This document shows, piece by piece, positions 3,222 through 7,912 of a DNA stretch of 32,482 nucleotides. This DNA is from an uncultured Chthonomonas sp. GTDB taxonomy: Bacteria > Armatimonadota > Chthonomonadetes > Chthonomonadales > CAJBBX01. Each line of letters starts with the position of its first letter. Position 1 is the first letter of the stretch. A program made the translations under genes and the position numbers. Location: the NCBI GenBank assembly GCA_903885605.1, contig CAISJD010000206.1, forward strand, positions 1-32,482, given 5' to 3'. The notes beneath the pieces were generated by a model, which was not told the DNA's origin, did no database searches, and worked only from the letters and a program-made list of their open reading frames with translations.

Positions 3222-4472
3222 TCAGCGCCGGGCGTGCGCCCGCAGCGTACAGGTCACGCTCACTTCGTCCGCGCCATACCTGGGCGGCGGGCAACCCGCC
3301 AGGCGCATCTGGTCCCGGATGGTGGCCAGGCCTTGCCCTTCGCCCTGGGCCAGGCCGAGCTTCATGAAGAACCACGCCAGCGTCTGGTTCCGCCAGCGGG
3401 GCGCCAGGCTACCCCTGCGAAGTCCGGCAAGCGTGCTGCCTGCCGGCAGGGCGCCGGGCGAGTAGAACTCGATCCGGTCGGCGAAGGCCGTGATGCGCGT
3501 GGGGTCATGCAGGCTGTAGTCGCGGTGGGCCAGCACATTGCCCAGCGCCTCCTGAAGGGCCCGCACGGGGTAGCGGGGGCTGTTGGGCTGGTCAAGGTCA
3601 GCCTTGTTCATCAAGAGGGACGCCTGCTCCGCCACAAGCCGCCGCAGCGTCTCGGCCTGCTGCATCAGCGGCCCGGTCAGCTCATGCCGCTCCGCGAAGT
3701 CGGTGGAGCGGTCCGTGCCGGGGTAGACCGACACGTAGGAGAAGCTGCCCGGAATGAAGCGCTGCGGGTTCCGGCCGAAGAGCAGCATGGCGAAGTGGCG
3801 CGGCCGGAGCGCCCCCGTCAGGGGTTCCCGGGCGCAGAGCGGAGGCACCAGCGCGTGGAGCTGCTCCACGTCGGAGAGGTACTCCTCCGCCCCGATGCGG
3901 CCTTGCAGGCCCATCCGCACCAAAGCCTCGCGCAGTACAAGCAGGTCGATGTCGTCCGTCGTGGCGGCGGCGCACGGCCGGCGATCCCAGGGCTCCAGTG
4001 CGCCCTTGCGGACCAGCAGGTCGCGCAGCAGGCCGTTGCGCGCCTCGATCGTGGAGCGGCCCACCCTGACGGTGTGCTTGGCGCCTTCGCTGCCGCGCCG
4101 GACGGTGTGCGCGGAGCCGGTGGCGGGCTGCACGAACACGAGGATGCGCCGGTCCGGTTCCGGCCCCGGCAGCTCCTCCACCAGCGGCGCGATGGGCGGC
4201 GAGACCCGCTCCCGGCACCGCGTCAGGACGGTCCCCTCGACCTCGCGGAGCCTCGCGGGCGTGAGGCCCAGGGGAACAGGTACCGGAAACCCGTCGGGGC
4301 CGGGCGCTTCGCGCACGCCGCAGACCACGTAACCGCCACCCAGGTTCTGGAGATCGTTGGCGAACGCGCAGAGCGTAGCCACCACGTCGTCAAGATCGGC
4401 TACGTTCTCCTTCCATTCGGTCTGCTCGCTCTCGCGCCGGGCGAGTTCGCGCAGGTCGATCCTGGGTGTCAT
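3222..4472 (-). CDS. AlbA_2-domain ATP-binding protein, putative transcriptional regulator
   Basis: A 416-aa cytoplasmic protein without signal peptide. The N-terminus carries an AlbA_2 (divergent AAA-4, Schlafen-like) domain, with ESEQTEWKENV at about 14-24 and LGGGYVVCGV at about 44-53. The C-terminus matches the HATPase_c_4 type fold, with ALQEALGNVLAHRDY around 305-319 and the glycine-rich GEGQG at 377-381. This architecture is that of the COG2865 putative regulators, which are widespread but poorly characterised. AAAGG lies about 10 bases before the ATG at 4472. It diverges from the MntA/HepT-like pair across 163 bp, so it could regulate that module, but nothing in the sequence proves this. 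It is convergent with the GH-like gene ending at 3215. Confidence 0.85.
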   Translation of the reverse strand: MTPRIDLRELARRESEQTEWKENVADLDDVVATLCAFANDLQNLGGGYVVCGVREAPGPDGFPVPVPLGLTPARLREVEGTVLTRCRERVSPPIAPLVEELPGPEPDRRILVFVQPATGSAHTVRRGSEGAKHTVRVGRSTIEARNGLLRDLLVRKGALEPWDRRPCAAATTDDIDLLVLREALVRMGLQGRIGAEEYLSDVEQLHALVPPLCAREPLTGALRPRHFAMLLFGRNPQRFIPGSFSYVSVYPGTDRSTDFAERHELTGPLMQQAETLRRLVAEQASLLMNKADLDQPNSPRYPVRALQEALGNVLAHRDYSLHDPTRITAFADRIEFYSPGALPAGSTLAGLRRGSLAPRWRNQTLAWFFMKLGLAQGEGQGLATIRDQMRLAGCPPPRYGADEVSVTCTLRAHARR

Positions 4473-4600
4473 GTCGAGGCTACCTTTCGCGCTCAGGGAG
4501 CGGACCCGGTCGTCGCGCCGCCTGCCGCAGGCTGTGTCCGGTTAGCATACCCAAGCAGGGGTGAAGCCGGCGGCGGGAGCGGAGCAAGGTGTCGGCCCCG

Positions 4601-4629
4601 TTGACGCCCGCCGCGTCCGGGCGCATAAT
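4601..4629 (+). promoter_or_regulatory. Sigma70-type promoter for the MntA/HepT-like module, apparently leaderless
   Basis: TTGACG at 4601-4606 and CATAAT at 4624-4629 are separated by exactly 17 bp, giving five of six consensus matches in each box. Transcription would begin about 4635-4636, which coincides with the A of the ATG at 4636. No Shine-Dalgarno sequence precedes that ATG. The arrangement therefore predicts a leaderless mRNA. Confidence 0.65.
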
Positions 4630-4635
4630 GTCGGC

Positions 4636-4953
4636 ATGATCGACCTGCCGCCCCACCTTGCCTCGGATACCTACCTCCTGCGCATCGTCGCCACAGTGCG
4701 GGAGGCCATGGGCGGCACGCCGTCGCGCGCCTACCTCTTCGGTTCGCGCGCCACCGGCCGGGCTCGGATCGGGTCGGACTACGATATCGCGCTGGATTCC
4801 GAGCAGGGCCTCGAAAGGCCGATCCGCCGCGCCATGGAGGCGCTTGAGGCATCGACCATCCCGTTCATGGTGGACCTGGTCGACCTGACGGTGGCAGACG
4901 CCGAGTTTCGCACCAAGGCCCTTCGGGAGGGCATCAAACTATGGACCGAGTAA
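4636..4953 (+). CDS. mntA: MNT-domain minimal nucleotidyltransferase (MntA-like antitoxin)
   Basis: A 105-aa protein with a minimal nucleotidyltransferase fold. The signature GSRATGRARIGSDYD at residues 36-50 fits the GSX10DXD motif exactly (G36, S37, D48, D50). D80 in FMVDLVDL is the likely third acidic residue. In characterised type VII toxin-antitoxin systems, MntA neutralises its HEPN partner by AMPylating a tyrosine near the HEPN active site. The ATG at 4636 is chosen because it begins the conserved fold and sits at the predicted transcription start; upstream extensions lack support. Its 3' end overlaps the next gene by 13 bp, implying translational coupling. The pair also resembles HI0073/HI0074, for which a toxin role is less certain. 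Confidence 0.85.
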   Translation: MIDLPPHLASDTYLLRIVATVREAMGGTPSRAYLFGSRATGRARIGSDYDIALDSEQGLERPIRRAMEALEASTIPFMVDLVDLTVADAEFRTKALREGIKLWTE

Positions 4954-5342
4954 CGGCTCAGCTGGCCTCGGCGGAGAAGGCCCTGGCCACCCTGCACGAA
5001 GCGCTTGCCATGCCCTCGAGCGTCGTGGTCCGCGACGCCTCGATCCAGCGGTTCGAGTACACCTACGAGGTGGCATGGAAGACGCTCAAGGCCTACCTCG
5101 CCGATGTGGAGGGGGTCGTCGCCGCCTCGCCGAACCAGTGCTTCCGCGATGCGCTGCGGGTGGGCCTCGTCTCGCCTGATGACGCCGAGCGCCTCCTGGA
5201 CCTGAGCCGCGACCGCAACCTGACGTCGCACACTTACGTGGAGGCCATCGCGGAGCAGATCGCCCGCCGCCTGCCGGCTCACGCCGCGCTCCTCCGCCAT
5301 CTGCTGGCGGCCCTGCGGGATCGGGTCGGGACGACCGTCTAG
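4941..5342 (+). CDS. hepT: HEPN-family nucleotidyltransferase partner, HI0074/HepT-like
   Basis: A 133-aa, mostly helical protein of the nucleotidyltransferase substrate-binding (HI0074) branch of the HEPN superfamily. Typical segments are FEYTYEVAWKTLKAYL near residues 38-53 and RNLTSHTY at 92-99. The latter matches the RX4HXY motif of HepT toxins: R92 and H97 would form the RNase site, and Y99 is the residue modified by MntA in characterised systems. The start ATG lies inside the end of the upstream gene, with GGGAGGG about 11 bases before it. The two genes form one unit. A toxin-antitoxin function is inferred from motif and pairing; family members can also be benign. The stop codon is followed immediately by the 78-bp hairpin array. 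Confidence 0.85.
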   Translation: MDRVTAQLASAEKALATLHEALAMPSSVVVRDASIQRFEYTYEVAWKTLKAYLADVEGVVAASPNQCFRDALRVGLVSPDDAERLLDLSRDRNLTSHTYVEAIAEQIARRLPAHAALLRHLLAALRDRVGTTV

Positions 5343-5627
5343 GGTTCAAGGGACTCACTTCTCTGCCATAGGAAAGTGAGTCCCTTGACCGGATCACGCC
5401 CCTCGGCCTGCACCGCCAGGGGTTCAAGGGACTCACTTCTCTGCCATAGGAAAGTGAGTCCCTTGACCGGATCAGGCCCCTCGGTCTGCACCGCCAGGGG
5501 TTCAAGGGACTCACTTCTCTACCATGGGAAAGTGAGTCCCTTGACCGGATCAGGCCCCTCGGCCTGCACCGCCAGGGGTTCAAGGGACTCACTTCTCTGC
5601 CATAGGAAAGTGAGTCCCTTGACCGGT
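5343..5627. repeat. Tandem array of 78-bp units, each with a perfect 15-bp stem-loop
   Basis: Three full 78-bp units (5343-5420, 5421-5498, 5499-5576) and a fourth partial unit (5577-5627) follow one another. Each contains arms TCAAGGGACTCACTT and AAGTGAGTCCCTTGA, perfect 15-bp complements around a 13-nt loop. Both arms are identical in all four copies. Differences fall in the loop (unit 3 has two changes, giving CCATGG) and in the spacer. The spacer can form a second small stem, CAGGCC-CCTC-GGCCTG, which is perfect in unit 3, has a G-T wobble in unit 2 and a mismatch in unit 1. Because 78 is a multiple of three, 26-residue repeats are open on both strands, but there is no ribosome binding site and I do not consider them coding. 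The array starts one base after the HepT-like stop codon. Confidence 0.9.
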
Positions 5628-5857: not shown

Positions 5858-7855
5858 CTACGGCGTTACGGTCAGGGCGCCGGTGCGCGCGGTGGGGCCG
5901 TAGAGCGCGTTGCCGTAGAAGGTGCAGGTGAACGTGTGGTCGCCCAGGCTTGAGTTCAGCGGCGCCACGTAGTACCAGTCGGAGCGGCCGTCGGCGTTGG
6001 TCCTGGCCATGCCCACGTCGGTGCCGTCCACGGCGAAGCCGATGGCCAGGCCGGGCCTCCAGTTGTAGGAGGGCAGGGACCGGGCGTAGGCGCGGAGGTA
6101 GACTGCGCCGCCCCGTGTGACGGTGCGCGGCTCCAGCAGCCAGAGGTAGATCGCCCCCTGCGTGACCGTCAGGTTCGCCGTCGCGCCGGCAGGCCCGTAG
6201 GCCTGATCGCCCGCCCAGGCCGAGGCCAGGGCCCGGGCTCCCGGCCCAGCGCCCTCCGGAATGACGTAGGGCAACACCGCCTGGCCGACCTCGTCGGTGG
6301 GTACGGAGCCCACAGCGACGCCGTCGACGGCAAACGCTATGGTCCGACCCACGGGCCGGCCATGGTCGTTGCGGCGGTAGAGATAGGCCTTGAGATAGCA
6401 CAACGCCTCGATCGGGCCGGTACGGTTGGGAAGGAAGATCCCGACGCCGGTCTGCGCCACGGTCAACCCGGCGGTGGCCCGTGCGGCGCTGTAGGTGGCG
6501 TCGCCGGCGAACTCGGCGGCGATCTCACGGGTGCCCGCGCCGGCGCCCTCCGGCACCGTGTAGGGCAGGGTGACATGGCCCGCGGCGTCGGTGGTTGCGG
6601 AGCCCAGCGCCACCCCGTCGATGGTCACCGACAGCGCTCGGTCGGCCACGGGCCGCCCGGAGCTCCAGAGGTTGGCGGTAATCGTGACGTTATCGCCGAT
6701 CCTGCCGTTGACGGTGGGCAGGTCGATCATGGTTGGCGCCGTTGGGCCGTAGGGGTTGCGCGCCAGGACGAGCGATGGGTTGGCCCCGCGCGTCGCGTAG
6801 GCGATGAGGGTCTCGTCGGGAGTGAGCTGGGCCGTCACCACAGACCTGTCCACATCGGCCGTGTCGTTCCATACCTGCAGGAGCTCGCCGTCCGAGACGC
6901 GCCAGAAGCGTACGCCCCCAGCCGCCGAGTTGGACACGTTTCCGGTGACGGCATAGGCGCCTGAAGCCGACACGAGAACGACTCCGTCCGACATGAAGGC
7001 GACGCTGTTGGCGGGAGCGGTGTGGCCCGCCAACGTCCGCACCAGTACTCCGTCCTGGAGGCTCCAGATCCGAACGTATTCATCGCTTGTGATCAGGGAT
7101 AGGGGCGAACCGGCCCCTACCGCCAGGAGGGCGCCATCGGGTGAGAACGCCAGGGCACTGTTGCGCTGGCTGTAGCCCGTTGCGTTCGGCAAGGGCACCC
7201 GGGTGTTGTCCGCCAACCGCCAGACGTACAGGTCGCCGTAGCAGCCGGCGGCTACTAGGGCCCCATCACGCGACACTGCGACGGAGTATGCAATAGACCA
7301 ACGGCCTGTATCGTAGTACCGCGCCATGGAGCGAGTGGCAGGGTCGTACAAACCGACGGTCCGGGCGTCCCAGGTGCTCATGGAAGTATCAGTCGCCACA
7401 GAGCCCCATACCACGTAGCGGCCGTCCGGCGTGCGTTCGAGACCGGTGGCATAGTGGCCGGGTATGAGCGGGTAGAGATCATGATCGACGGACCCGTCGG
7501 AGAGGCGCCAGATCGCCGTCGAGAGGCTGAACGTGAGGTTGCTCCCTCGCGCACCGACCGCCAGGCGCTGCCCATCCGCAAGGAACGCCAGTGCGGTGAT
7601 TCGCTCCGTCTGCACATTGAGCGTCCGCACGATGCCGCCGTCCAGCGCCCTGTGGATCGTGACCGTGCTATCGTCATGACCGCAGGCGATCAGCTTGCCG
7701 TCTGCCGAGACTGCCACCGCACTGGGCTGGCTGGTGAAGGCAGCGCGCCAGACGATGTCGGGCCGCGCTTGCTGCGCGAATGCCGGGCTCACACTCACGC
7801 CTAGGATGTAGGCGGCCAGCGCTCGTAGAGCACGGGTCCGCCCGTGATCTGCCAT
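5858..7855 (-). CDS. Secreted WD40-repeat protein with three C-terminal Ig-like domains
   Basis: A 665-aa protein. The ATG at 7855 is chosen because AAAGGAG lies eight bases upstream and the product starts with a signal peptide ending near SPAFAQQ. A GTG further upstream falls inside the preceding terminator hairpin. Residues about 30-370 form WD40-type beta-propeller repeats, with recurring phrases such as AVAVSADGKLIACGHDD and ALAFSPDGALLAVGAG and W-containing blades. Residues about 375-665 form three Ig-like repeats of roughly 95 residues, each with a VDGVAVGS-type strand, a TDEVGQAVLPY-type strand and an AGDATYSAA-type strand. Such proteins usually mediate binding rather than catalysis. 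It follows the LamG gene in the same direction, separated by a strong hairpin, so it may be expressed separately. A decayed fourth Ig-like piece lies just downstream. Confidence 0.85.
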   Translation of the reverse strand: MADHGRTRALRALAAYILGVSVSPAFAQQARPDIVWRAAFTSQPSAVAVSADGKLIACGHDDSTVTIHRALDGGIVRTLNVQTERITALAFLADGQRLAVGARGSNLTFSLSTAIWRLSDGSVDHDLYPLIPGHYATGLERTPDGRYVVWGSVATDTSMSTWDARTVGLYDPATRSMARYYDTGRWSIAYSVAVSRDGALVAAGCYGDLYVWRLADNTRVPLPNATGYSQRNSALAFSPDGALLAVGAGSPLSLITSDEYVRIWSLQDGVLVRTLAGHTAPANSVAFMSDGVVLVSASGAYAVTGNVSNSAAGGVRFWRVSDGELLQVWNDTADVDRSVVTAQLTPDETLIAYATRGANPSLVLARNPYGPTAPTMIDLPTVNGRIGDNVTITANLWSSGRPVADRALSVTIDGVALGSATTDAAGHVTLPYTVPEGAGAGTREIAAEFAGDATYSAARATAGLTVAQTGVGIFLPNRTGPIEALCYLKAYLYRRNDHGRPVGRTIAFAVDGVAVGSVPTDEVGQAVLPYVIPEGAGPGARALASAWAGDQAYGPAGATANLTVTQGAIYLWLLEPRTVTRGGAVYLRAYARSLPSYNWRPGLAIGFAVDGTDVGMARTNADGRSDWYYVAPLNSSLGDHTFTCTFYGNALYGPTARTGALTVTP

Positions 7856-7873
7856 CTTCTTTCTCCTTTGAAT

Positions 7874-7912
7874 GGCCTTCCCCGCCACCGTGGCACGGTG
7901 GCGGGGAAGGCC
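7874..7912 (-). terminator. Long perfect palindrome between the LamG and WD40/Ig genes
   Basis: Two perfect 19-nt arms (7874-7892 and 7894-7912) flank a single central base; the outer part reads GGCCTTCCCCGCCACC and the other arm is its complement. The structure begins seven bases after the stop of the minus-strand gene ending at 7920 and ends just before the ribosome binding site of the next gene. It is a likely terminator or RNA-end stabiliser. No clear T tract follows. Confidence 0.7.

Follow-up and report, generated by a model that had tools for sequence, protein, structure and literature searches.

A genus-specific family of dispersed intergenic palindromes in lake Armatimonadota, with an array beside an MNT–HEPN gene pair

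The array and its gene neighbourhood

The window, by which we mean the whole 32,482-nucleotide stretch of DNA analysed here from an uncultured Chthonomonas sp., carries an antitoxin-like nucleotidyltransferase gene of MNT type and a toxin-like HEPN gene, with a tandem array of hairpins immediately 3' of the HEPN-like stop and a convergent gene beyond it (Table 1). The motifs expected of MNT and HEPN proteins, GSRATGRARIGSDYD and RNLTSHTY, could be read from the sequence, and the pair fits the HEPN–MNT kind of predicted toxin–antitoxin system. It resembles the known type VII modules as a gene pair (PMC7641770, PMC11586414), but the array lies outside the module and orthologous pairs exist without it. 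A minus-strand gene at 3222–4472, next to the pair, encodes SLFN_AlbA_2 and RecG-like C-terminal domains.

Table 1. Features at the locus, in window coordinates
Feature	Position	Strand	Basis
MNT-type nucleotidyltransferase, antitoxin-like; outside the repeat	4636–4953	+	PF18765 (E 5.6e-12), PF01909 (E 8.4e-7)
HEPN-like NTase_sub_bind protein, toxin-like; outside the repeat	4941–5342	+	PF08780 (E 1.8e-27)
Tandem array, four hairpins with 33-bp spacers	5342–5627	-	TRF; covariance model scores the minus strand better
Hairpin 1, 41 nt	5347–5387	-	Position of the hairpin within the array
Hairpin 2, 41 nt	5425–5465	-	Position of the hairpin within the array
Hairpin 3, 41 nt, two changes in the loop	5503–5543	-	Position of the hairpin within the array
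Hairpin 4, 41 nt	5581–5621	-	Position of the hairpin within the array
Beta-propeller/Ig-like repeat protein, convergent neighbour beyond the array	5858–7888	-	Pfam matches, ORF

The array is the only one that TRF found in the window, at 5342–5626, with a period of 78 bp, 3.7 copies and 96% matches. The initial annotation had described four 78-bp tandem units with an invariant stem that start directly after the stop of the HEPN gene, and both points are real: the arms of 14–15 bp are identical in all four hairpins, and the upstream ORF ends at 5342. A hairpin stands at either end of the array, and the spacers separate model spans of 45 nt. An assembly mis-join at this place is unlikely, because querying the genome with the entire array revealed no other place with its spacer; the copy number may, however, be collapsed in the assembly.

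The 285 nt of the array fold far more strongly than shuffled sequence (z −11.9), as perfect palindromes necessarily do. About four differences separate the units, and all of them fall in the loop and spacer, as the initial annotation had observed; with 30 of the 78 columns in the stem, about four changes would all miss it by chance with a probability of around 0.14. This is not significant, and the window array by itself is therefore little evidence of constraint. A second small stem per unit, also proposed there, can be drawn in the spacer, but the spacers of the family's other arrays differ.

Dispersal, arrays and genomic sites

A search of the same genome with the window array gave matches on several contigs, and the exact stem pattern recovered nine hairpins on contigs C206, C136 and C108. 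With a covariance model built from 16 copies, we found about 40 hairpins in the genome, the two strands of one palindrome being counted as one, and many in both congeneric species. In the fetched loci, a scanner limited to hairpins of exactly 41 nt counted 36 copies at 15 places in the window's own genome, and 14 at 12 and 29 at 19 places in the two congeneric species. Outside the genus, the covariance model gave no clear match in 58 more distant genomes, with one marginal hit (E 0.05). A scan for the loop motif in about 85,000 species genomes, from which the window's own genome is possibly absent, matched only the two congeners, which are lake Armatimonadota MAGs titled Armatimonadetes bacterium (LacPavin) and uncultured Chthonomonas sp. 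(Loc090907); no viral contig matched. Rfam returned no match at the gathering score, and weak matches to miRNAs and sRNAs all fell below the cut-off. These hairpins are a genus-specific, dispersed family of intergenic palindromes in lake Armatimonadota.

The family occurs both as singletons and as head-to-tail arrays, the commonest period being 53–54 bp with a short spacer, while the periods of the window array (78 bp) and of C136 (77 bp) come with their own spacers. The same hairpin is present in the window array, on C136 and C108 and on C160 of a sister species (G002), in otherwise unrelated surroundings. C136 and C108 share their first spacer, and the assembly has probably split one array into these two ends. 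Arms are matched and homogeneous inside any one array, while stem sequences vary from array to array and from one orthologous site to another. At such sites the number of units differs as well; an apparent hisG, judged from its sequence, is one example, with 2, 3 and 1 units behind it. CRISPR arrays were rejected as an identity, the spacers being the same or nearly so within each array rather than different.

Nearly all hairpin clusters (51 of 52, on gene calls from a simple codon score) are intergenic. Twenty-three of the 52 lie between tandem genes, 12 between convergent and four between divergent genes, and 13 were unclassified owing to contig ends or gene calls; some of the clusters are orthologous and hence non-independent. 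The genes that flank different hairpins are unrelated to each other, the sites show no strand preference, and the genes pointing into the hairpins do so about as often in one orientation (29) as in the other (26).

Two further observations concern the surroundings of the hairpins. Another dispersed repeat, some 160–200 bp long, adjoins many of them and is frequently present in multiple copies, for the most part in G002 (L112, L113, L145, L150, L155 and L158). In two cases (L010:243-283 and L116:1628-1668), an upstream ORF is read on through the hairpin, which supplies its C terminus (HFPMAEK), so hairpins may alter gene ends.

Pairing in the hairpin stems

The hairpin is about 41 nt long and is conserved at its ends (CAAG...CTTG) as well as in its inner stem and its loop (CACTTTCC...AGAGAAGTG). 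The centre of the stem varies between loci and yet remains paired, with 23 left-arm sequences among 46 locus representatives. Among 41 distinct hairpins, 94.9% of cells pair as compared to 80.9% in shuffles, and 79 cells are changed on both sides as compared to 22.7. The covariation score is 0.380; shuffles give 0.115 and controls with slid pairing partners 0.116 at most, and sliding abolishes the signal. The scanner demanded at least 11 of 14 pairs and therefore yields a set biased for this test, so the pairing test was repeated on copies picked solely by the inner motif. In these, 190 of the 198 cells that make up the nine outer pairs are paired, while shuffling gives a mean of 159 and a maximum of 175. 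Relatedness of the sequences may inflate scores of this kind.

The initial annotation had suspected a structural constraint and had named a lack of compensatory substitutions as evidence against its proposal. Many two-sided, pair-keeping changes are in fact present in the stems of related hairpins, but template switching could yield the same pattern. Template switching during replication is able to create and repair hairpin arms (PMC8794818), and the matched arms may be explained by this process, by selection, or by both. The conserved inner stem, loop and ends could reflect a bound protein or an RNA function, which weighs against the reading preferred below.

Origin and possible roles of the array

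We consider it likely that the window array is one locus of this genus-specific dispersed intergenic family, behaving like REP/BIME repeats. REPs are short intergenic palindromes with tens of copies per genome, found mostly between tandem and convergent genes, and their tandem clusters are reiterated together with flanking DNA (Di Nocera et al. 2013, PMC3733652). The hairpins resemble them in each of these respects, with some 40 copies in the window's own genome and a single cluster that is not intergenic. They differ in having stems of 14–15 bp and a 13-nt loop region, as compared to REP stems of 5–13 bp, in commonly forming head-to-tail arrays, whereas head-tail dimers were rare in that survey (PMC3733652), and in a stem centre whose sequence changes from locus to locus while remaining paired. 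The conserved GTAG/CGTC tag is absent: CTTGACG (CGTC on the other strand) occurs in 27 of 79 copies and an upstream GTAG in 8 of 79. A GTAG REP flanking a RAYT gene was rejected, since Y1-transposase genes (PF01797) exist in the genus but the covariance model found no hairpin in their fetched flanks; no mobilising enzyme was found. For CGTC REPs the survey identified no dedicated transposase (PMC3733652), so the missing hairpins near RAYT genes do not by themselves exclude the CGTC type. Taken together, the lack of a conserved tag and of hairpins by RAYT-type genes indicates a REP-like new family rather than a tagged or classical REP, and the best reading is a new family of REP-like intergenic palindromes that forms head-to-tail arrays. 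The BOX elements of streptococci, which are intergenic and consist of tandem internal units of variable number between boxA and boxC boundaries, are similar in their variable-number tandem units and intergenic position; they differ in that no fixed boxA/boxC boundaries are established for the hairpin family, and they belong to an unrelated organism.

In such a REP-like family, new sites would arise by transposition or recombination through some enzyme. Arrays would then grow and shrink as a hairpin with its flanking spacer is gained or lost via unequal crossing-over or slippage, and template switching, selection or both would maintain the matching of the arms.

The neighbouring gene pair has its own history. 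Orthologous MNT–HEPN pairs in the sister species G001 and G002 share 89% DNA identity with it, the match ending at window position 5336, and the covariance model found no hairpin in the fetched regions around them. The segment (window 4595–5336) is located elsewhere in both sister species, and the counterpart of the sisters' site in the window's own genome, a gap on C67 (near 490–507), does not contain the pair, which was therefore relocated, or duplicated and then lost at one site. Across the three species, hairpins are directly adjacent at 1 of 13 HEPN-family loci, that of the window; at one orthologous locus pair (G001:C171 and G002:C168), a hairpin lies 1.6 and 2.4 kb off with a GFO_IDH_MocA-type gene between. 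The initial annotation had pointed to homologous arrays next to other HEPN/MNT genes as support; arrays do occur elsewhere in the genus, but the genes beside them are unrelated. With scattered hairpins, sister orthologues that lack the array and one adjacent locus in 13, the proposed HEPN/MNT link is unsupported, and both observations named in advance as counting against it, repeats dispersed across the genome and no association with HEPN genes, were made here. The position of the array beside a toxin-like gene looks like coincidence.

It is also conceivable, though improbable, that recombination or integration takes place at the palindromes, with gain and loss of small cassettes, among them defence and toxin–antitoxin genes. 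That the palindromes gather and move such cassettes, and that one process placed both the MNT–HEPN pair by the array and a GmrSD_N gene between hairpins, is an equally doubtful proposal. The GmrSD_N gene of G002:C160 (L110:1386-3221), which matches candidate defence models (PADLOC, best E 1.1e-29), is consistent with it: the neighbours are the same at the G001 locus L134, where a single hairpin is present and the gene is missing; this hairpin, however, is oriented opposite to those of L110 relative to the neighbours. At G002:C92 (L115:2108-4398), an insert of about 2 kb with an ankyrin-repeat ORF and a 381-aa ORF, absent in the window's own genome (G000), is bracketed by two copies of the hairpin plus 253 bp of the neighbour's 3' end. 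The MNT–HEPN pair itself is differently placed in the sisters and ends 6 bp before the array, but it has no hairpin on its other side, and the sisters' sites and the C67 gap are hairpin-free in the regions searched or read. The three cases are anecdotes with no control set.

Slightly less plausible still is that the hairpins are immobile and have been selected at the ends of genes to terminate transcription or stabilise mRNAs. The excess of tandem and convergent over divergent sites and the many hairpins that hold their site across species would suit this role, but divergent sites do occur, the same hairpin recurs in unrelated surroundings, and restriction to one genus is unexpected for a general terminator. 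An intrinsic terminator was also looked for at the window array, and none was found (no T tract, no terminator-like match).

Least probable is that the array yields a structured RNA, built of repeated hairpins, which acts together with the HEPN RNase, whether as substrate, decoy or antitoxin RNA, as the initial annotation had suggested: the array abutting the HEPN stop codon, its strong fold and the pair-keeping changes in related hairpins all speak for it, but we reject it, as the majority of copies lie elsewhere, the orthologous modules of both sisters lack the array, 12 of the 13 HEPN-family loci have no adjacent hairpin, and the roughly equal read-in from both sides argues against a strand-specific RNA. 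Type III toxin–antitoxin RNAs (ToxI-like) are tandem repeats upstream of a ToxN-type toxin gene, and the window array is comparable as a tandem repeat with RNA-forming potential near a toxin-like gene; however, it is downstream of the gene, on the opposite strand in the family's orientation and dispersed in the genome, and its neighbour is a PF08780 HEPN-like protein rather than ToxN-type, with no ToxN-type match among the Pfam-scanned neighbours.

As a member of a REP-like family, the window array, lying between the convergent HEPN and 5858–7888 genes, might act as a bidirectional mRNA 3'-end structure or insulator; any effect it has is most likely of this kind, rather than that of an RNA serving the HEPN gene.

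The hairpin family is covered by no Rfam model and was not found in a literature search on the phylum. It replaces the tempting account of a toxin-associated RNA. Its stems, which differ between arrays and between orthologous sites, together with the close species that carry them, provide a natural test of selection versus template switching as the source of pair-keeping changes.
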